Below, one piece after another: positions 6,176 through 57,427 of a stretch of DNA of 64,000 nucleotides. The notes beneath the pieces were generated by a model, which saw nothing but the letters and a program-made list of their open reading frames with translations, made no database searches and had not been told where the DNA came from. The DNA lies in assembly GCA_026874595.1 (NCBI GenBank), contig CM049311.1:22436676-22500675 (forward strand), read 5' to 3'. Position 1 is the stretch's first letter; the number at the start of each line of letters is the position of its first letter. The stretch is from Sipunculus nudus (taxonomy: Eukaryota > Annelida > Sipuncula > Golfingiida > Sipunculidae). The translations under genes and the position numbers were made by a program.

Positions 6176-6313
6176 CTTGTCACTACCGTGAGTTCGGACC
6201 CGCCAGTCAGAACATCTGTCATTGTGCCAACAACTGGGACTGTGACAAGGAGACAGGAGTCTGCCCAGAGGTAACCTGTGATGAAGGTTATGGCGACAGC
6301 ACTTGCAGCATTA
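6176..6313 (+). CDS. Gene A EGF-like exon
   Basis: A 138-bp phase 1-1 exon, acceptor ttttcag and donor gtaag. It reads CHYREFGPASQNICHCANN and then CDKETGVC, ending DSTCSI. It is the same length as the gene B EGF exon, but the second cysteine (GPGC in gene B) is replaced (GPAS). Seven cysteines remain, an odd number that leaves one unpaired. Confidence 0.85.
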
Positions 6314-6396
6314 GTAAGAAAATAAATAATAGGACCTTCACTTAATTCCGATCATTACTATGCATAACTACATATTTGACAGAATTGTAACCTTAT

Positions 6397-6450
<54 letters not shown>

Positions 6451-8306
6451 GTTTTGTATAACAAGAATCATTATATAATATATCAATAGTGAAAGTTATT
6501 ACAAGTATTTGAATATAAAACTAATTTAATTTATCAATTTGCAATCTGAAGTTGCCCAAATTTTTATGTGTAGACCATGTATGTATTATACTGCGTTGTT
6601 GCAGAATTGCCAACACTATATTGGCGAAACGAAAACACAGCAAGGCCAGTGGATAACACAAACCATGTACGGATCATCTTCTATCAGTTTAAAAGAGGTA
6701 ATAATGCTTACCGTGACTCAGGTGAAGGTCCGGTGACAGAATACACAGTAGATGTGAAGGAAGAGGGGTCTATTGACTGGGTCCCCATTGAAACGTTTAG
6801 ACATGATGATACCAAGGACAGACTGGATGTAACTGTCACAGGTCTGAAGTACTACCGGAATTATACCCTGAGGGTAGTTCCGTGGTATCAACGAGATAAT
6901 GTCAGGCTTAATGGACGAGCAGAAGGTATATTTACCGTGAAAACAGACTGTGGAAGTAAGTGTATCGCTTTACTGTAATGAACAAAGCACACGTTGATTA
7001 ATTACTTTATTCTTGTACATTATCATACACTTAACATATCTGTGCATTGCAAATTCATGTTTTATCTATTGTTTTTATCTGACCCTATTGCTAATATGTG
7101 GAGTTTCCATTTTATTCTTTTTACTACCTTAAAAATAAATCACTCTTTCCTGTAACAAAAAATCCTAAATGGCATGTATACGTGTTTCAAATTTTGAAGT
7201 GTTAATATGAATACTCTCTAAATTATCTGCAATGACTGTCCGCCAACGTACAGCAAATCTAGTAAAACCTCTTTCTATGTGTATAAAATACACAAATATC
7301 CGGCTCCCTTTTTTAAGAATGTTTTCTCCTTTTACAGAACCAGATAAGCCCAAGTTTACAGATATTACAGCAAAGAGGGTTACAGGGGGAGCAAATATGG
7401 CCGTCAGTTTTACGGTAACATAAAATTATATGTAATAAGTATGTTGCACTTTCATGTATTTTGCATCATGATACATAGTTAAAAAGTTCGCTCCTGAGCT
7501 TTCACACTCAGCTGAAGCACACATCAGATAGGCTTAATATAGGCCACACTGTGCTTATTTAGTTTTACAAGAAAATTTATTTACATATCAAGATTTTATA
7601 TCACAATGCATGTGAATGACTTGTGCCCGTTAATCACACTGATGCCCATGCAGAGATATGGGAGAGAAGATAGAACCCTTAAAATATGACTTTGATTTGA
7701 TATGAGCTATGTTGGCCTTATTTTTGGTTAAATTCTTGAATAGCTTTATTGAATTTCTTAATGCATGATGTGCCCATTGACAATAACCTGAATCGGTGAA
7801 ATTTACTGCACGTGATCCTTGATTTGGTGATTTGTTAATGCAAAAATTGTCCGTAGGCCCTAATGTTATTGCAAGCCTGTAACACCCTTGAGTATCAGTA
7901 TTTTTTAAAGCTTTCATCATATTCTGTATTCACATCAAGAGTTTCTCACTTTTGGTCAATATACACAGAATATTAATCAAAAAGATGTTTTTCAAAAGTT
8001 TGATTCGAAGTTGTCGCGATTTCTGGAAGCAAAGCAATTAGCGAGTAGGGATTTCGTTTGTTTAGTTTAAAATGAAATGTGACTAAATCAGTGTATGGTA
8101 TTGCGATACACTTTTGTCGGACTAAGCTTAAGCCCTTTGAATATATACATTTGATGATTCATAGGGATGACATTATATATAACACGTTTTCATGTCACAC
8201 ATACGTACCTATTGATTTGTACGGATAAAATGATTTGGTCTATTAAAATGACGCCACCCTATTAGCATCTCTGATCGTCCGGTAAACAGCGTCCCCGCGT
8301 CGGACG

Positions 8307-8354
<48 letters not shown>

Positions 8355-9424
8355 AGTATATGTATTTATTTAATAATCAATATAAATCACAACAACATCC
8401 CATTTGCTAAAAGCTGATAAATAGTAGCCAACGATATAAATTTAAATGCAAATCGCAAACACTTGTCGGTCTGTGTTGATGGAACTGAAAACAGAAACGT
8501 ATTTTACACAAATCTGAAAAACATAAACATAAGCATCAGGAAGAATATCTTCTCCTGTATCAATTAAAAGACACGAGACTCTTCAAGGGTTATACGATGC
8601 TGGACAGTCGAGGGGTTAAAAGCCCGGCTTACTCCGCTGGCAACCCGGGTTCGTTACCCCGCGTGGTGATGAGCATGGGCTGTAGTTGCTCTTCCAAGAC
8701 TGCAGAATCTCCGGTTTTCTTAACCCCTACTTATTACCGATCAGCATCATCTGAGCCATGAAAAGTGTTTTGATTAGTCATTATAATTGTTTGCACAATC
8801 TATGTCAAATAAATTAGTTAATATTAAAAATACATATCGGCCAGTTTTGACGCATATAGTAATGAATACAATAGGAAATCAATTTGGCCGATAACGGGTA
8901 CTCCCGAAATTGACAGCTATCATGCAATCATGGCTGTCCATGTTATTGTAACAATATAGCAGTACACTGAATGATCTGAATATTACTGATTATTGGAGAG
9001 GAATTAATTATGAAATCACCATATAAAAGAACAACCTATATTAACTTCAGTTTAAAGCCTTTTTTTAACCGTAATCAACAGTGAACTACTAATATAAATC
9101 TGACATATATGGATGCTTGAAATGCAGGGAAATTTAGTTATGCCCTACGTTGGAAGGGAGTTTGGCACATGAAAACAGTGATTAGACACTAATTAGATCT
9201 CTTTATCCAAAGTGATTTGATACGTGTAGAGCAGCCAGGCGTAAAAAATTAAAAGTGTTGTTTCATCATCGCAATTTGAACGCAATATTGTGCTTGTTGT
9301 GTAACTCTAACTCGGTCGGCTGACTCAATATTATAACTTAATCTAATTTGATTTTTACATAAATTTAATCCAGGCTGGAAGCTCTTTACCTGTGAATCTT
9401 AATATACATTTTTTTCTACGTATA

Positions 9425-9472
<48 letters not shown>

Positions 9473-12400
9473 CTTTTGATTACCCAGGCTTTGTAACTTG
9501 CAGTTCTGCTTTCATATTCTGTTCTTGAACCAAAGCGATTTGCAGTATCTGTCATTTGTTTCATGATGAAGCCCAGGTAAATTGCAGTTAGACTATTTGC
9601 TGTCGCGGCCTTGGTTTTATATGGTACCTATACAGAAAGTGTACAAGAAAAACTTTTCATATAAATGGTTCAGCAGAACAAAGAGACTCACTTTTGCTTT
9701 GTCTAAAAGTTTAAAAGACAAGTTACATATGGCTGTCTAGCGTTTCTGGTAGCTCTGTCTGACTTTGACAGGGTTCAGCAGATATAAATGTTTTAAAAAA
9801 TTTTTGTGGGATGCCTTGTTGGATTTTCAAACACTGAAAACACACCTGTGTTCATGGGCGGTAGTGTCTTTTCAGGTTTCACATAAAATATAACACATTT
9901 GCATTCGGAGGCTTAACCGTGGATATTTAGGTGCCATATTAAAAAATGGCTATTGTCTGGAAGATGGCTACGATAGCATAGCCTTTATATCAAATTTAAG
10001 AAATCGTCAGATTATTTATATCATTGATATATTTTTTCATGTCACTGTAAAATCGGTATTAATTAGCTTGTTGAAATTCATTAATAATTCCCGATTGCTA
10101 TAACAAGTCATTCTTCCACTGAAAGCCAAAATTATATGAACTTATGTATATGCTGCAGATTTCATGTTTCATTTTGAAATTGGTTCGTAACTGTGTTGTT
10201 TACTTTTAGCTTTCAAAGGGCGGCCATAACTGTGCAAGCTATAAATTAGTTGACCTCAAGAGAAGAGCTCTTCCCATTACCAGCACAGAGTGGACTGATT
10301 CTGACTGGTTCGGCCCTATGGATGAGAGAGTAGAAGTGTTCATTGCTGAAATAGACATGACGAAAATGCATCAAGTTCAACTAACAGTTTATAATAATGC
10401 TAATAAGGGGACAGACAGTGGAATTTCGATATTTATGCCAATAACAGGTATTCCTATTTGCCAGTATATGTTAATGTTAACTTTATATGAATTATAAGAT
10501 TTTGAATCATCTTACAGTTACGGCACTTTTGCAACCTAATTGTTTGGGCATAATATAAGTTGGAATTATCTGATAAATATATGTTTCACTTGAACCCCTC
10601 CCCCGAAAAAAATTCTTTCAGTCCTTTTTACACAGTCTAGTAATCTGTTTTGAGGTGTATATTTTATTATGCTTGCTAATTTGACGGAGTGGTATATTAA
10701 TATAGTTGCATTGCAGATCTTCTCTTATTTAAATTTCAATGGCGATCCCGTGGAGGCCAACTGCCACATTTACCGTTCGAACAACTACCAAACGTAGGTC
10801 CGATGTAACAGATGTCTACCCTGAGATTAAAACTCCTGACAAAGTCTCGACCGAGCCTTCTGTAAACGACAAATCGGAAGTGAACGCTGGCACCATTACT
10901 GGAGGTGTGATATCAGCTATATTCCTGATAATTATCATAGCCTTACTTATCTACATTTGGTAAGTGTATACTGTTTTATTAAAAACCTTATAACAAATAT
11001 TATCACTTAGTATGAGCAGGGTAGTAACTAAATATACCTAACAAAGTTTAAAAGTCATTTCATCCAGATCATGCTGTAATTTTATATAAAATGTCATAAT
11101 TTCTTTTTACAGCATGTATGTAACCTTTGCACGTATATCACTGAAAAGTATTCCCTAAGAATTTTTCTGCATTAATTTTGGCATAACAAAAATATGCTAA
11201 TAGGGGTATTCATCTATTTGCTGCCTGAAATGCCCTTTCATGTGTTTCACAGGTTCATTTTTGTATGTGCATATATATATTTTGTCAATGTAAGCGTGAT
11301 ACTAATGTAATTAAAATGTATATAAAAGGAGGCTTAAACGAGGCTGTAGGACCAATCCAACAAAAGCCAAGGGGACACATCCGGTTAAGAATAAACATGT
11401 TTCAAGTGAGTACACATTTTCTACATTTTGAATACTTGACAGTAAAGAACTGCGCAAAACTGTTTAAGTTTTTCCAACTTCAAGAAATATTTATATATCA
11501 AACAGTAATGGAAATAATAAATAATCGAATTGCAGGATGATTGAAAGCAAAGCAACCAAGCTAATTTGAATATTATTACATTTATTCATATTCTTTAAAC
11601 AGTTGTACTTATTTGCATTTACATTATTTACATTTTACAATTGGCATCTAAATAATTTATACGCATACATTTTAATGCCTATATCTCTAGTGAGTTTCCT
11701 ACAGAGAATTTAACTTTTTCAATGGGCCTATCTTCTGATCACATGGATTCCACACCGAAAGAAAGAACAATAACTTTAACAGACTTCAGATTATTGTTCT
11801 TTTTTTAGGTGTGTAATCCATGTGATCATAAGACAGTAATAAATGAAAATAATTGAATAAATTTACCAGGCCTCACATTATTAATTTATTTTTTCAGTTG
11901 TCATCTACTTCCTCCTTCCAGTAAAATTAGATAATAGATCAAATGACCTATGGGTCATGGTTCTGAGTTTAATAGCAATCAGACCTGGACTTTCACATAT
12001 GTTAATGTCAGTTCGAAACATAAAAAGAAGGAAAGAGATCAAAAGTGAAAAAAAAAACATCTGCAGCACACACTGTTATATAATACCTTTGTTTAAAATA
12101 ACCTCTTGTTACTTTGGAAAGTTGTATGTACATCACTGAATGATACTAAATACTAATTAAACGCCTAAACTACGATTGTGCTTCAAGGTACAGCCAGAGC
12201 ACTTGTAAAGTATATATTTAGAGTTATGTTTTCAAATAAGCATTACTCATTCATTAGAAGAACTAAATGAAATTGTATTTGAATGAGCAGCAAAGAACAG
12301 AAATTGATCAAAAGTAAAATGACCTTGAGAGCATAGAACAAGGTCACAGCAACAGGAGAAAGTGTGACTCTGGGCATTTAGTAGATATGAGCTTTTCGAT

Positions 12401-13464
12401 GGTTCGGACGGGGAAAAAGACGCTAACTTGGTGAAATAATAAAAACGTCTGCTATGGCGTCTTATAATCAACTGCAGATGCATCTAAAGTTCTTTTATTC
12501 CTTATCCAACTGTCAAAGGTATTCTCTGTGACAGAGGAATAAGAAGACCAGTATTCTAGTTTCACTTTATGAAAAACTGCTGAACACTGAGCTGAAATTA
12601 TGAATCGAGTGTTCCCTGTTATATAAATTATGCAATATTAATTTCATGATATTGAAATTTTAGTTTCGGTTAACAGTAGCATTTACAGGATAATCCTATC
12701 ATTGGGTTTTCTCCTATTGCTAGGAAAATAGATATCTAGAAAGTAGATATTTTGTATCAGTTCAATTAATATGTGTAAAAAGTCCGGGGTTTCGTCTTAA
12801 ACCTGAGTATCTAAAGTTCAGCAGTCAAAGGTTATACGAATATATAGAAACAGCTAAAGGCTAAGTTTTCAGAGAAAAAATCACATCCGCTATTGACAGA
12901 TCATTTAAAAACACATGGTAAGGATAAAAAATTATTTATATATATATCAGGAAACCAAGATGATAACATCAGAGCCGAGGTGCCAGGTATGGATGGAGAA
13001 TGTGAAAGTGAAGGACTTTCCACTATTGGCCGCCACTCATATGTCAACGTGGAGGGAAACAAGTACCAAACACTGGACAAACAACAGATCACAACCCCTG
13101 AACAGAAGACGTACGGGGTTTCGTCTTCAACCTGAGTATCTAAAGTTCAGCAGTCAAAGGTTATACGAATATATAGAAACAGCTAAAGGCTAAGTTTTCA
13201 GAGAAAAAATCACATCCGCTATTGACAGATCATTTAAAAACACATGGTAAGGATAAAAAATTATTTATATATATATCAGGAAACCAAGATGATAACATCA
13301 GAGCCGAGGTGCCAGGTATGGATGGAGAATGTGAAAGTGAAGGACTTTCCACTATCGGCCGCCACTCATATGACAACGTGGAGGGAAACAAGTACGAAAC
13401 ACTGGACAAACAACAGATCACAACCCCTGAACAGAAGACGTACGCAAAACTCGATCCTGAGTGA
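6176..13464 (+). CDS. Receptor with EGF/FN3 ectodomain and tyrosine-motif tail (gene A, 5' incomplete)
   Basis: This looks like a single-pass receptor sharing gene B's ectodomain but lacking a phosphatase. Exons seen: 6176-6313 (EGF-like), 6605-6955 (FN3-like), 7338-7414 and 10210-10447 (membrane-proximal domain), a stalk plus transmembrane exon ending at 10959, 11332-11405 (basic juxtamembrane segment) and a terminal exon present twice (12951-13135 and 13280-13464). Phases 1-1, 1-1, 1-0, 0-1, then 2-1 match gene B where comparable. No signal peptide or lectin exon was found upstream in the window, so it may start outside or have lost them. The stalk exon cannot be joined in frame to the exon before it. 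Poly(A) signals occur at 13729 and 13990. It could be a functional paralogue with an unseen microexon or a recent pseudogene. Confidence 0.75.
6605..7414 (+). CDS. Gene A FN3-like exon and first membrane-proximal exon
   Basis: Exon 6605-6955 (351 bp) encodes LPTLYWRNENTA, IIFYQFKRG, GPVTEYTVDV, VTVTGLKYYRNYTLRVVPWY and RAEGIFTVKTDCG, an FN3-like fold paralogous to gene B exon 5. Exon 7338-7414 (77 bp, acceptor tttacag, donor gtaaca) encodes EPDKPKFTDITAKRVTGG and ends phase 0, exactly as gene B exon 6. Confidence 0.85.
7415..10209 (+). other. Gene A intron
   Basis: Holds SINE copy 2 and two (TA)n runs (8306-8349 and 9427-9468). No other exon recognised. Confidence 0.6.
8603..8820 (+). mobile_element. 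tRNA-derived SINE, copy 2 (gene A intron)
   Basis: Same family as 1531-1755: A-box region cgaggggttaaaagc, B-box gggttcgttacccc, shared body and shared end (caatctatgtcaaataaa). It lies between the two membrane-proximal exons of gene A. Confidence 0.65.
10210..10447 (+). CDS. Gene A membrane-proximal exon
   Basis: Acceptor cttttag, donor gtattc, phase 0-1. It encodes LSKGGHNCASYKLVDLKRR, then a Glu/Asp-rich strand region and ends IFMPITG. Gene B exon 7 starts LVKGGHNCDSYWKIDL and ends FPPITG, so the exons are clearly paralogous. Confidence 0.85.
10756..11405 (+). CDS. Gene A stalk/transmembrane exon and juxtamembrane exon
   Basis: The open frame contains PTATFTVRTTTKRRS, a short acidic stalk and a hydrophobic helix (IFLIIIIALLIYIW), ending at 10959 before gtaagt. 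I can support an acceptor at 10756 only weakly: it is phase 2, while the preceding exon ends phase 1. The stronger-looking acceptors at 10706 and 10717 both open frames that hit stops. The next exon (11332-11405, or 11329 by an alternative acceptor 3 nt upstream) adds a basic segment, WLKRGCRTNPTKAKG, and ends phase 1. Confidence 0.6.
11731..11833. repeat. 43-bp inverted repeat (hairpin) in gene A
   Basis: Arms 11731-11773 and 11791-11833 are complementary at about 39 of 43 positions, with a 17-nt loop. It lies in the intron before the duplicated tail exons. It may be a short foldback element. Confidence 0.75.
12785..13443 (+). repeat. 329-bp tandem duplication of intron end plus terminal exon
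   Basis: Unit 1 is 12785-13113 and unit 2 is 13114-13442, each starting at cggggtttcgtctt. I count about four differences over the unit: one in intron sequence and three in the exon. The two nonsynonymous ones both fall on the residue just after a motif tyrosine. Confidence 0.92.
12951..13135 (+). CDS. Gene A terminal tail exon, copy 1
   Basis: The first of two tandem terminal exons, acceptor tatatcag, phase 1. It encodes a cytoplasmic tail with HSYVNV and KYQTLD. The third motif is cut at the duplication junction: the frame runs from TY into intron-derived sequence, giving GVSSST and a stop at 13133-13135. It could act as an alternative last exon, or be skipped. It is 329 bp upstream of copy 2 and nearly identical. 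Confidence 0.55.
13280..13464 (+). CDS. Gene A terminal tail exon, copy 2
   Basis: Acceptor atatcag, phase 1, stop TGA at 13462-13464. The tail carries three tyrosine motifs: HSYDNV, KYETLD and TYAKLD. YDNV fits the YxNx pattern bound by Grb2-type SH2 domains; YETL and YAKL fit YxxL. The spacing is not that of a canonical ITAM, and the -2 residues do not fit the strict ITIM consensus. This copy keeps the natural C terminus (DPE) and is probably the ancestral last exon. Confidence 0.75.
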
Positions 13465-13728
13465 GTGTATACACGATGAAACTTGATACAAACCCGCAGA
13501 AATCTCGAACTTTGTTCTGATTTCATACACTCATCATGAATATGTATGTCTGTTAATTTACTCTGTAAACCTGTCTAAATGCTTACATTTATGTTAGTAT
13601 AAACAAATGGGGTTTATAATACGATATACATGTTTTCTTTTCAGTCATCAGAATTTAATCACTCGTCTTCTGTATAACTGTATTCTAAAAAAAGTATTTC
13701 ACATGCAAACGAAAACATGCCTATTAAC

Positions 13729-13995
13729 AATAAAATATTATAAATATTGGTTTGCGGTACGGTGTTTCGGATAGGTCACAAAGACTGTCATCTCATGTAT
13801 AAGAGATAATTGTTACTTAAGCATGAGTTAGCATATTAAACATAATAATCGTTATCTGACAAAGTTTTAGGTGGTTTATATATCCTAGTCCCCTCTATGT
13901 GTAAAATGTAGCAAAAATATGTTTTTTTATGTGCTTAAAGGGTATATTTAATTTGTAAATATATGTATCGTTTGTGCCAAACGTTTTGAAATAAA
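13729..13995 (+). promoter_or_regulatory. Candidate poly(A) signals of gene A
   Basis: AATAAA occurs at 13729-13734 and 13990-13995, about 265 and 525 bases after the copy 2 stop. Either would end a normal 3' UTR. No coding sequence is seen between them. Confidence 0.4.
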
Positions 13996-14094
13996 CTTTG
14001 AAGCGGCTTCAGCTGATATCAGCCTCTATGGTACATTTTTATAACAATTATTTAGAACAACCTGTCCTATCTATTTGTCTTGAGAAAAAAAATC

Positions 14095-14143
<49 letters not shown>

Positions 14144-17100
14144 TTTACACCGATTAGAAACATCGTGTTACAGCACAAAGAAGCATGATTATATTTTCCA
14201 GCTGAAGTAAACACTGTGAAGTGACATCATAATCATTATTTTACTTGCATATGCAGAGTGGGTGTCTGAAAGACCAGAGATTTTGTTTATTAATATTAAC
14301 ATTAATAGTTATTCTAGTTATCGCGACTCTTTTACATCTTAGTTGTCAAGAATCTTGAATATAAACAATTCGCCATTGTATTAATATTCCTTTGTTTCCA
14401 CATACAATTCCAAGAAAGCTTCCTGTTAGGAAAGCTACTTGATAGCTACTTGTTTTTGCTCTAAATATGGCCTTACATTTCAGATGACGCACGTGTCACA
14501 AATGTGTTATTACACAAACAATATATAACATGGAGTATCTGAGACGTGCTGAGACGAAGTAAAAGGTTTATAATCTCGAATAAACTTTAGGAAGTATATG
14601 TGTATCATGTGACTTGTAACCATATTTACATTTCAAGCTGGAAGCAAATATCCGATTTGCACGAATGATTCCCAAGGTAGATTTTAAAGTTGTTCATATT
14701 ATTATAAATCTCCGCTGACGAATACTAAATTCAAATATATTATATCTTTATCTCACGAATCCATTACATTTAGAATGTGCAAAAAGTTTTGAGTTCAGCC
14801 AACACATCACAATGTTAATAAATGTTTTGATATTATGGTACCATTGTTCTATAATGTAACAAACTGAATGAAACATATTAAAAGTAAAACTCCAAAAGCA
14901 GTCGTTTTGACAACAAATTCAATGATTATGAATGTAAACTTTGTATTTTGTCTTAAAGAAATATTGTTCTTTGAGAATTTTGACAGTTTTCTGCTATTTT
15001 TCGGATCAGTGTAAATGGATGTTGACAAATATAAAAAGAATAAATTGGTTTTCATAATGTAGTGTGTGTGTGTGTTATCGTTAAGGTACAAGGGTTTCCT
15101 GAGTTTGCATGTGAAAACGGCTCGATAAACACCCGGAACCCATAAAATTTAAGTGAACGCCCATATATAATACCGGCGTTTCTACAAAATGCCATCTAGC
15201 TTGAGCTGATAGTTGCTTACGTACATACTTCCATTTTCTAAAGAAGGACACTGAATTAAGATGAAATGTTGACAAGACTTAAACGTTCGGGGACCTCAAG
15301 CTTTTGATGCCTCAGGGAATGGATGCATAACGAATATTGTTTACATACAGAGTTCACGTGTAAAGCCAAAGATGTACCAGAAGAATATGTCACACCTTGA
15401 TGTTAATATATGTAACCACTCAATTGCGGTAGCAGTAGTTTTCATTAAACTTTGGATACACTATCGAGTGTTTTAATCATGGGACCGAGATGTTTCTATT
15501 GTTTACAATATGTTCATTATTATACTCTTTATACTTTAATACTATCCCCTGGAATAAAATAAAACGACCAATACCAAATGTATACTAGTACATGTTTATT
15601 TAATATCATACATATTGGTGGTTAACTGTGCATAAAGATACAACAGGCCTCATTTTAATATTCATGGTTGTTTAAGATACAACAGGCCTCATTCTAATAT
15701 TCATGGGCAGCTCACATTTAAATCGGGCCAATGCTAGAGTAATGTTTAGTGCGCCAAGTAGAGAGGGGAGGAAGCGCCCGAGAGGAGAGTAGGTTATTTC
15801 TTCCATCCCGTACATGAAATGTATTTAAAATAGCACAACAAATTAGGATTTTGAACATAGTAATTGAATAACCTTTTTCTGTCTGTCTGTACTAATTCTA
15901 GCTTTTAATAATAAATTAATATTTAAACGTTAACATATGTCTCCTTCATTTAAGGAGATGTTACCCTCCCGGGTAATAGGTCTTATAAATCATTGGTCTT
16001 AATAACCACATTCCTCTACGATTAAAATATATCTCATCCAATTTTCCCCCGTCTCCCACTATCGCACTGGAACGGTTATTAATGTTTACCTGAGTTGTGT
16101 CAGGGCAGCGTCCTTAAAATCCCGTGTATAGATTTTCTTTTAGGTATTCAATGGTTGTTAGCCCTGTTTTCAGTTCAGTTGTGCATCTTAAACAACAGTC
16201 TCAAGCGTCGACACCCCAAATCAGTTCTATTGAGTGTGCAAAGACGTGCTTATCTCGATACCTATTCTCCCTGAAGCCACAAAGAGAACACTCTCAGTCA
16301 TTCCCGTCCTATTATTGTATCTTCCCAAGTTAGATAATTCCCTTAAAGAGCGACAGAAAGGATGTGATGACAAATAGACTTCAGTAAACGACAAGGTTAC
16401 ATATGGTAGACTGGAAATCAGTAGTGTAGGTATATGTAACAAGGTTTTTATGCCTCAGTGAATGAATGCATAACGAATAGTGTTTACCTGCACACGTTAT
16501 GTGTATAGCCAGATTTTAATAAGAAGAACATTGTACGCCTGGATGTTAACCAATGTGTGTTTGAGCTCCTATTATGATGCTGGATGCTTTCATCTTACTT
16601 GGATATTATTGTATTTGGAGTGATAATGTCATGATTACTAAGCTGATTTCCTTTATTTATTTAATACCAGCGCTTTATACTGTTTTCCTTGAGTCATACA
16701 CAAGGAGTTGGCTTATGTGAGTAGGTTAAGGCAAATGTGTGAAGCCAAAACCCAACAAACAAGTCATGCCAAGGCCTGACTTTTGGACACCAGGTGGTCC
16801 TCGTAGTACATGAACCCATCTTTCTTTTATTAGAATGCTACGATTGCTTACTCCATCAGGAAATCATGAAAGAGTATGTGGTTTGTAGTACATAAGGATT
16901 GCGTTTATGTCAAAACAATTGTACACGGTTATATATTGAGTATGTACATAAATGTATACTATCCAGAATTAGATTCTGTGTATATATATACGTATATATA
17001 TATATATATATACATAAACAAACACAAACATATACACATATAAACGTATGACCCTTTTTAAGCACAAACACGTATATATATATACCTACATATTTATAAA

Positions 17101-18665
17101 TACACATTATTTTGGATAAGATCGCTAAAAGCATCTACCCCTTTCAATCCATGTCTATGTACACATTGACGTCCTCACCTAAAAGTAAATACATTTATCT
17201 TATGAAAGATTCCATATTTTCAGTTTTTGTTCACAAGTAAAGGACCTGTGTTCACACATTGCGCATTCTGAGAATACCTTGTAAGAGAGTTCAAAGGAGA
17301 CCCTTGTCTATCCTCAAGACCCTTCACCAACTAAGTGATACCCATGTCCATCCAAGGATCATATATTTTGAAGTATGAACCAGCTTATCATCCTTGGCCA
17401 ATATGTCTGAGTTCTTAGATTTAGTTCTCTAAATAGCTTATTATGTTTTGTACATCCGTGTGTCTGATGATAGAGCGGCCGTGTCAATGTAGACCCATTC
17501 CTGCATCTGTAGCCATTTTACCGGATGAATGATTCCATGACGGAACCAATGTCCGCTCCAGGAGTATGTACTTTGGAGTAAAAAAAAAACTCATGGCAAG
17601 ACCGACTCTGATGACATCCCGAACTCTTGGTATAGGTGATGAACTTGATATCTGACTTGCGGTCTTAGGCACTGAAATGGGGGAATCTTATGTGTCCTCC
17701 AAGAGCGAAAGCAGTCTTTGGCCACTGTTGTTGCCTGGATCCTGCAGGTGTTGGTGGATATAACCTATCTCGTCCTGAAATGAATGACATAAGTGATACA
17801 AGAGAGAAGAATGAATAACAGTAACTTTTGTTTTTATTCTGTAAGACTATGGTGACTGGTTTCTGCAGGTTTGTCAATAGTTCAATGATTTCAATCTATG
17901 TGCTGTTCGGGGAAGCGACCTTATGAAGATGTAGGCTATCACGTGACCAGGCAGGCGCTTTCCCATTGACTTACCTGCACCCACTTATTAGGTTTGCTAT
18001 TTCCAGCGGGAAACCCTCTCTGTGACTTAAATGTGAGGAAACCCATCTGTATGCAAATTAACTCATAGGGCCCCCCCCCCCGAAACAAAACACATTCCTT
18101 TCTCGAAATTTGTATATTGATAGCTTCTTTTGCGAAACAGCCGAACCTTACTGCTAATTAAAACGCCTTATAGTTAAAGTGCTCAGCTATTACGAATTTC
18201 CAACTTGACTTATAACCATCCATAACTTTCCAATACTTGTATGCTTAATGAAATCCTTTACATGTTGGTGCAATAATCAAACAAAGATGAAGAATATCAC
18301 TCATAAAAGTTAATTGTTTCACACAGAAGGGTGAGTTACCTTGATTGTGGTCAAAATCTGAAAGCATCAATCTATAATTGTAAAAATTTCAAATAATACA
18401 AAAATATTATGCCTTAGTGCTGGACTGGGACTAGGAATTTATGTTAGCGACAGAATAACAGGTATTTTATATTGGTCACCGCGAGCTCCACGGGGCCCCT
18501 TTAGCACTTAAGATTTAATCATAACTTGCATTGGCTTTACTCTAAAAAAAATCACAACACTTCAGATTTACATTAGATCAAAGCATACATTAACTTTTTG
18601 TACAGACTGACATCAGTTAAAAATCGCCTATTTTATAATGCAAAACATATACTGGAACGACGAGT
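13996..18665. other. Intergenic gap between genes A and B
   Basis: Apart from the direct repeat, (TA)n at 14097-14140 and 16978-17010, and a poly-C run near 18070, I see no gene. Minus-strand frames at 17484-17877 have no recognisable domain. Confidence 0.5.
15295..16580 (+). repeat. Direct repeat about 1.15 kb apart in the intergenic gap
   Basis: About 115 bases at 15300-15415 (atgcctcagggaatggatgc...) recur at 16448-16562 (atgcctcagtgaatgaatgc...). A separate short tandem pair, tacaacaggcctcatt, lies at 15640-15705. Confidence 0.7.
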
Positions 18666-18893
18666 CAATGAATATAAAACGTCAGCTTATATAAGCCCGA
18701 GTTTAAGAAAACCTATACACGTACACTCTTGATAGGTCATGTGACACAAAAAGTAGAGTCAGTCCTCTCATGTGTAACAGAGTATTGGTGCCACATACCT
18801 GTAGTAAGTGTAATACATGAGGTGTACAGTGTACGAGTGACAACAAGGAAGAAGCTTCTGACTGTATACCTGTCAATGTTTTGATGATCTAAA
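18666..18893 (+). promoter_or_regulatory. Candidate promoter and leader of gene B
   Basis: Two TATA-like stretches (atataaaa and tatataagc) lie about 200-220 bases upstream of the start codon. Immediately before the start is a two-codon upstream ORF (ATG ATC TAA, 18884-18892) that ends one base before the main ATG at 18894. No transcription start can be placed from sequence alone. Confidence 0.3.

Positions 18894-57427
<38,534 letters not shown>

Follow-up and report, generated by a model that had tools for sequence, protein, structure and literature searches.

A receptor gene cluster in Sipunculus nudus in which one kind of ectodomain is predicted to carry either a tyrosine-bearing tail or a tandem phosphatase

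Results

Two receptor genes in the window

We analyzed a window of 64,000 nucleotides from the 1.43-Gb genome of Sipunculus nudus (contig C6, CM049311.1, positions 22436676-22500675), in which a sequence-only reading had recognized two adjacent receptor genes, A and B, with shared ectodomain exons and opposite-looking signaling ends. The features of both genes are collected in Table 1; positions prefixed by a contig name elsewhere in the text are those of the contig.

Table 1. Predicted features of genes A and B, numbered from the first base of the window
Feature	Position	Strand	Remarks
Gene A EGF-like exon	6176-6313	+	Phase 1-1; AG/GT splice sites; 138 bp, as in B; 62% amino acid identity to B's EGF exon over 47 aligned positions, E 1.8e-18
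Gene A FN3a exon	6605-6955	+	Phase 1-1; 351 bp (345 bp in B); 53% identical to B over 129 aligned positions, E 3.6e-45; among the 21 C6 cluster matches; Pfam fn3 below cut-off
Gene A FN3b1 (FN3b first exon)	7338-7414	+	Phase 1-0; 77 bp, as in B; 45% identical to B over 29 aligned positions, E 1.2e-6
Gene A FN3b2 (FN3b second exon)	10210-10447	+	Phase 0-1; 238 bp (229 bp in B); 42% identical to B over 81 aligned positions, E 8.3e-14
Gene A stalk and transmembrane exon	10740-10959	+	Acceptor lost; AA at 10738-10739, AG in sister locus
Gene A juxtamembrane exon	11329-11405	+	Phase 2-1; counterpart exon in gene G4
Gene A tail exon, copy 1	12951-13135	+	YVNV and YQTL; premature stop
Gene A tail exon, copy 2	13280-13464	+	YDNV, YETL, YAKL, stop; 21 tail matches genome-wide
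Gene B signal peptide exon	18894-18957	+	Exon model
Gene B F-type lectin domain, first exon	19684-19938	+	FBP32 E 1.8e-20; eel agglutinin E 6.8e-10; Pfam F5_F8_type_C_2 34.5 bits, cut-off 27.8
Gene B F-type lectin domain, second exon	22259-22501	+	Exon model; solved-structure match
Gene B EGF-like exon	22968-23105	+	Exon model; similarity to A
Gene B FN3a exon	29937-30281	+	Exon model; similarity to A
Gene B FN3b1 (FN3b first exon)	31205-31281	+	Exon model; similarity to A
Gene B FN3b2 (FN3b second exon)	33994-34222	+	Exon model; similarity to A
Gene B Thr-rich stalk and transmembrane exon	35022-35280	+	Exon model
Gene B juxtamembrane exons	35546-36794 (35546-35631, 35996-36410 with GC donor, 36704-36794)	+	Exon model
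Gene B phosphatase D1 exons	37772-53705 (37772-37856, 38178-38254, 38681-38717, 39193-39290, 39732-39866, 41756-41901, 45096-45231, 53556-53705)	+	WPD and ten-residue signature intact
Gene B phosphatase-like D2 exons	53891-57427 (53891-53987, 54326-54399, 54728-54856, 55252-55383, 56145-56308, 56603-56738, 57335-57427)	+	WSN for WPD; HCLNGNKKSG, Lys for catalytic Arg

Gene B was modeled in 26 exons (18894-57427) that join into a single open reading frame of 1296 residues. All 25 acceptors are AG, and the donors are GT in 24 cases and GC in one. The GC donor lies at 36411 (AG/GCATGT) in the juxtamembrane region and is required for an open frame. By eye, the N-terminus is hydrophobic and there is a single transmembrane stretch. 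Pfam recognizes two Y_phosphatase stretches in the complete frame (E 2.7e-137), which bears out the tandem phosphatase that had been read from the sequence. Receptor-type tandem tyrosine phosphatases combine a catalytic D1 domain, marked by WPD and HCx5R motifs, with a D2 domain that is often inactive. Because D1 of gene B retains SWPD and the signature, whereas D2 has WSN and lacks the catalytic Arg, we read D1 as competent-looking and D2 as inactive-looking. With a signal peptide, one transmembrane segment and two phosphatase domains, gene B has the predicted build of a receptor-type tandem tyrosine phosphatase.

Several further features were seen in gene B. Directly after its EGF exon lies the remnant of a second one (23148-23214), which reads through 19 residues and then meets a stop. 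Inspection of the list of open reading frames by eye suggested degenerate LINE-like pieces on the forward strand of one intron (25258-27874) and pieces of a DIRS-like element, with reverse transcriptase and recombinase, on the reverse strand of another stretch of intron (47472-50686). None of the RNA families searched reached its gathering score.

Gene A shares ectodomain exons with gene B and is damaged

The proposal that A and B share exons holds for four of them, the EGF, FN3a, FN3b1 and FN3b2 exons, which are similar in protein sequence, equal or close in length and identical in phase between the two genes (the base carried into each gene A exon was taken directly from the sequence). It is not supported for the stalk and transmembrane exons, between which no similarity was found at E<0.5 under low-complexity masking, so that detectable sharing ends at FN3b2. 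The split between the genes is old, because the gene A region has no DNA-level match to gene B at E<=1e-4 and FN3a has a dS of 1.93 (dN/dS 0.18). Gene A is not complete within the window: the exon for the second half of its lectin domain was located at C6:22435368-22435604, and 1.07 kb separate it from window position 1, upstream of which it lies. Between window positions 1 and 6176 no lectin domain matched at E<=0.01, and a 16-residue lectin match at 24-104 (E 0.24) was judged to be due to chance.

Gene A is damaged at the acceptor of its stalk and transmembrane exon. A sister locus at C6:22830590-22831030 has an AG at the corresponding place, and its neighboring intron and tail DNA are 96-98% identical to those of gene A. 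The strong AG at 10716 is out of frame and leads to a stop after 30 codons. Three AGs within the exon itself (10811, 10844 and 10880) keep phase and frame in a scripted check, at the cost of at least 24 stalk residues, and for this reason we call the gene damaged and not dead: a receptor with a shorter stalk would be possible. A working gene A receptor of the usual form is unsupported in this assembly, given the loss of an acceptor that the sister locus retains. Since the assembly represents one haplotype, the damage may be allelic.

The short tail with three tyrosine motifs that had been ascribed to gene A is present (YDNV, YETL and YAKL), and all three motifs occur only in the second of two tail copies, which arose in a 329-bp tandem duplication (12785-13444, 98% matches). 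In the part that the copies share, there are two replacement differences, each in the residue that follows a motif tyrosine (YVNV/YDNV and YQTL/YETL). The tail matches no known Pfam domain at E<=0.1.

A and B belong to a cluster on C6

Searched against the genome, the gene A tail gave 21 matches (E<=1), every one of them on C6 (22.450-23.126 Mb). They include gene A's own two copies, and three of them contain stops or are partial. The genome search scores the best candidates only, so that counts for large families are lower bounds. FN3a gave 28 matches, of which 21 lie on C6 (22.443-23.175 Mb) and the remaining 7, on C4, are weaker. Of 31 matches to the second lectin half, the cluster contains 17, C4 12 and C9 2. 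The D2 signature exon of gene B gave 16, with four in the cluster at 100%, one at 93% and the next at 75% on C4; and the D1 WPD exon gave 68, with four in the cluster at 92-100% and the next at 72%, in the same C4 gene as that of D2.

We annotated exons by tblastn across 264 contiguous kb. Exon-by-exon models were made for A, B, G4 and most of G5. For P4, P5 and the remaining tail genes, the assignment relies on exon matches that lie next to each other on one strand, and in G7 the transmembrane exon was not found. The cluster comprises about 20 tail loci, some of them broken, and four to five phosphatase loci, all with one kind of ectodomain.

One tail gene, G4 (C6:22536153-22550970, reverse strand), has an open frame from its lectin exons through the EGF, FN3a, FN3b, stalk and transmembrane, and juxtamembrane exons to the tail. 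All of its internal junctions are AG/GT, and its phases equal those of gene B up to the transmembrane exon; its signal peptide exon was not found. Because G4 is open throughout, a tail receptor can carry the whole ectodomain, including the lectin domain. The locus thus has clustered members with a shared ectodomain and, in the tail gene G4 and the phosphatase gene B, two classes of end, as paired receptors do.

Other groups of exons were noted in and beyond the cluster. Flanking G4 is an inverted pair of FN3a/lectin pseudogenes (C6:22514845-22515189, reverse strand, and C6:22567167-22567511, forward strand) whose FN3a proteins are 98% identical. At C6:22637672-22651858, three near-identical cassettes of FN3b2 and tail stand in tandem, with a stop in one tail and no recognized transmembrane exon. 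Groups of F-type lectin exons at C4:63.92-64.11 Mb and C9:63.27-63.29 Mb lack a match to the tail or to the two phosphatase exons of gene B that were searched. At C4:56.077-56.131 Mb, lectin (67%) and phosphatase (72-75%) exons lie on one strand outside the cluster and may form an outgroup to the family. Matching exon sets offset by about 110 kb and about 75 kb occupy C6 22614290-22778637 and 23043132-23174248, which suggests recent segmental duplications or uncollapsed haplotypes.

If the assembly had retained both haplotypes, the copy number would be inflated and the true locus would be a handful of genes. Tail and FN3a matches do recur at the two offsets, and the repeats that were read are near-identical. 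However, twelve FN3a groups differ by 15-54% in protein, beyond ordinary allelic difference, and the mixture of phosphatase and tail loci does not depend on the near-identical copies. We consider so small a locus very unlikely.

The ectodomain has an F-type lectin-like fold

The lectin domain of G4 matches the solved structures of FBP32 (E 9.2e-15) and eel agglutinin (E 7.2e-6), as that of gene B does with the values in Table 1, and both domains are similar in sequence to the F-type lectin fold. F-type lectins bind fucose through residues that in eel agglutinin are His52, Arg79 and Arg86 (PMC5712786). In our alignment, the His is unmatched in both B and G4, with a gap near it; gene B retains Arg79, for which G4 has Lys; and both retain Arg86. 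The fucose-binding His-Arg-Arg triad therefore looks incomplete in these two domains, and because the His is unmatched in both and Arg79 is replaced in G4, canonical fucose binding is doubtful.

The names EGF and FN3 are used here as loose labels, given by pattern and by profile matches that are weak or missing. Pfam EGF did not match A or B at E<=0.1, and Pfam fn3 scored 23.5 bits for A and 14.6 bits for B against a cut-off of 25.

The tails carry conserved tyrosine motifs

We examined 19 of the 21 tail matches, leaving out two fragments. The commonest tail has four tyrosines, in YESV, YVNV, YETL and YAKL; gene A has Cys in place of the first. The tails are related to each other, so the following counts are not independent. 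YxN, which we take to be a Grb2-type site, occurs in 18 of 19 tails, against 0.21 per shuffled tail, and a loose ITAM-like pattern (YxxL/I-x6-12-YxxL/I) in 16 of 19, against 0.010. With the strict ITAM spacing of 6-8 the pattern is confined to a single tail of the 19, so that these are not ITAM receptors in the usual sense. Nor are they ITIM receptors by motif: [SIVL]xYxx[ILV] occurs in none of the 19 tails, against 0.17 per shuffled tail. Across 19 pairs, dN/dS of the tails relative to A or G4 ranges from 0.15 to 0.71. By eye, a YVNR segment in the phosphatase juxtamembrane region resembles the YVNV of the tail.

These values bear on whether the tail receptors are merely debris or by-products of a family of phosphatase receptors, having lost the phosphatase and gained a short, non-signaling C-terminal exon. 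Signs of decay are present in the cluster: besides the lost acceptor of gene A and the two inverted pseudogenes, there are a stop in the EGF exon of G11, a tail-only copy at 22614290, and two tail matches, at 22638573 and 22839242, that are interrupted by stops. Yet the tails are conserved, their tyrosine motifs stand far above shuffled expectation, G4 is open throughout, and tail loci outnumber phosphatase loci by about 20 to 5. We regard the debris explanation as improbable.

Signaling ends have been exchanged between genes

A second phosphatase gene, G5 (about C6:22590915-22612024, reverse strand), resembles gene B in one half and the tail genes in the other. Its phosphatase half, introns included, is 76-94% identical to that of gene B outside a tandem-repeat stretch (40335-41772) and 72-88% inside it, and the last 2.2 kb are 94% identical. 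The ectodomain of G5, by contrast, aligns with that of B over only 147 columns. Against gene A it is 81-83% identical around EGF and FN3a and 74-78% around FN3b, and against G4 it is 72-84% identical outside repeats, flanking intron being partly included in both comparisons. Over the whole EGF-FN3a intron, A and G5 are identical at 65% of 266 aligned columns, and B's intron gave no match in the same comparison; because whole-intron identity is only this high, DNA homology of the ectodomain introns rests on their flanks.

Synonymous divergence shows the same break. Between B and G5, dS is 0.40 for D1 and 0.12 for D2, against 1.74 for FN3a and 2.70 (saturated) for the first lectin exon, FTPa; for FN3a, dS is 0.29 between G5 and A and 0.37 between G5 and G4. 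Selection on protein does not explain this contrast. Judged by these sequences, G5 is a chimeric phosphatase gene with a tail-type ectodomain, and ends have been exchanged between genes. The D1 exons found in G5 have AG/GT sites; in its D2 region (C6:22590915-22594927), most of exon D2d is missing (about 150 bp; the exon is frame-neutral in B) and AA stands in place of the AG before D2a.

FN3a trees were built from 18 of the 21 cluster loci, and the test on which we rely used 12 rows, excluding four rows outside the set with known ends and two pseudogenes. A single clade of the four phosphatase-bearing FN3a rows was rejected (p-AU 0.007 for the 12 rows; 0.013 without B). Sisterhood of the B and G5 FN3a exons was not rejected (p 0.26), B being a long branch whose placement is unsure, and support is weak for the majority of forks within the core set. 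The FN3a of P4 (at 22879491) groups with a tail gene, with support of 94/98 among the known-end rows and 98/95 in the wider tree, and that of P5 (at 23174248) is 99% identical to a unit outside the known-end set. Broader AU tests gave p values of 5.8e-4, 1.7e-4, 1.5e-55 and 3.2e-7, which we set aside because their extra rows include near-copies of phosphatase units, which inflate rejection. The tail and phosphatase classes are thus likely to be intermixed across the cluster. As in paired receptors elsewhere, ectodomains have passed between classes, to judge by the G5 chimera and the two AU values relied on.

The sequence-only reading had staked the A-B pair on trees that keep their ectodomains together, and here the outcome is divided. 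B's FN3a is only 46-58% identical to all others in the comparison, including 54% to A, and the nearest relative of A is a tail gene, at 92%. The ectodomains of G5, P4 and P5, on the other hand, are A-like.

The exchange of ends also bears on a more ordinary role, in which the tail receptors would be endocytic lectin receptors with YxxPhi sorting signals and the phosphatase genes would be ordinary ones that share only an ancestor with them. YETL, YAKL and YVNV all match YxxPhi, and an ectodomain of F-type lectin fold would suit such a role, but sorting requires neither YVN nor the 12-residue spacing between YETL and YAKL, and the exchange of ends between shared ectodomains would be left unexplained. 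We think this unlikely.

Discussion

A candidate paired-receptor cluster

The reading we favor is that A and B are members of one paired-receptor cluster, in which a common ectodomain is joined to either a tyrosine tail or a tandem phosphatase, ends are exchanged between genes and the phosphatase damps the tails. We put the chances of this whole reading at about even. The estimate rests on the cluster and is therefore unchanged by the damage to gene A. The paired-receptor locus proposed earlier gains further support at the level of the cluster, where about 20 tail loci stand with four to five phosphatase loci and phosphatase ends are found on ectodomains that group with those of tail receptors. 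It fares less well for A and B as a pair, with B's FN3a so distant from all others and A damaged.

As we read the cluster, the stalk of the common ectodomain is preceded by an F-type lectin-fold domain, a single EGF-like module and a pair of FN3-like modules. In receptors of one class the cytoplasmic tail is short, about 60 residues, and contains three or four tyrosines; those of the other class carry two tyrosine phosphatase domains in tandem, of which D1 looks competent and D2 inactive. Recombination has exchanged these ends between ectodomains. The sharing of ectodomain exons, the clustering and the exchange are shown by the sequences. Binding of ligand would cluster the tail receptors, and a Src-type kinase would phosphorylate their tails, whereupon YVN sites could recruit Grb2-type adaptors and paired YxxL sites could recruit tandem-SH2 proteins. 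Drawn to the same ligand, a phosphatase receptor whose ectodomain is similar would dephosphorylate the tails or the kinase. The kinase, the adaptors, the common ligands, the direction of signaling, the damping by the phosphatase and a role in recognition, of microbes included, are all parts that we infer, and D1 could act on other substrates.

Receptor phosphatases can also activate Src kinases, as CD45 does. By analogy with such CD45-like activation of Src-family kinases, the polarity might be reversed or mixed, with the phosphatase receptor as activator and the tail receptors as adaptor or inhibitory partners. Grb2-type YxN sites are not diagnostic of activation, but an ITIM is found in none of the 19 tails, and we rate such a reversal as rather unlikely. 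Damping by the phosphatase remains the direction that we favor.

Relation to known systems

KIR, LILR and FcR-like receptors have shared ectodomains, opposite signaling ends and ectodomain exchange within one gene cluster, and in vertebrate paired receptors the inhibitory partner recruits SHP phosphatases through ITIMs. In the C6 cluster, by contrast, the partner would carry its own phosphatase, and the 19 tails examined have no ITIM. Among receptor phosphatases, the D1 part of gene B scores best against PTPRT, PTPRK and PTPRM of the R2B group (265, 254 and 248 bits; single-domain chains, among the 60 solved-structure matches listed). Gene B differs from R2B phosphatases in having no MAM or Ig match in Pfam at E<=0.1 and an F-type lectin domain and EGF module in their place, and we do not assign it to that group.

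In invertebrates, the fester family and co-receptors of the Botryllus fuhc locus likewise form a receptor cluster with tyrosine motifs, variation in gene content and functionally paired members (PMC12065747). They differ in having Ig or sushi ectodomains and ITIM, hemITAM or core tyrosine motifs, and the account given there describes no built-in partner phosphatase (PMC12065747).

In architecture, the published system that comes closest is SudRes1 of Biomphalaria sudanica, a cluster of receptor phosphatases with EGF and galactose-binding domains and of other EGF genes that is associated with schistosome resistance (PMC12297450). The MEGF/GBD proteins of SudRes1 are single-pass and combine EGF modules and a galactose-binding-fold domain with a tandem intracellular phosphatase; their genes share a single chromosomal cluster with further EGF genes, of which one or more also encode a galactose-binding domain, and copy number is variable (PMC12297450). 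The main text of that paper does not contain the terms ITIM, ITAM, cytoplasmic tail, fibronectin, chimer, gene conversion, tyrosine-rich or recombination, and uses "paired" of sequencing reads only, so that in such words it describes neither partners with tyrosine tails nor an exchange of ends (PMC12297450).

Our searches of titles and opening lines of abstracts in the open-access literature, as distinct from subscription papers, found no molluscan cluster that pairs tail receptors with phosphatase receptors. In vertebrates, innate lymphocyte recognition is characterized by paired receptors whose ectodomains can be exchanged, and such receptors take other forms in tunicate allorecognition. We tentatively suggest, as a possibility that we hold with some doubt, that the C6 cluster is an invertebrate KIR-like paired-receptor complex, built independently, in which the damping partner has a covalently attached phosphatase and an ectodomain can be coupled to either end; SudRes1 may belong to the same system. 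If this is true, a cluster with a built-in phosphatase would show the pairing principle arising repeatedly and by different chemistry, with a receptor and its own phosphatase competing for one ligand. It would also offer a testable explanation for the snail receptor-phosphatase cluster linked to parasite resistance, and it names a partner to seek beside that cluster.
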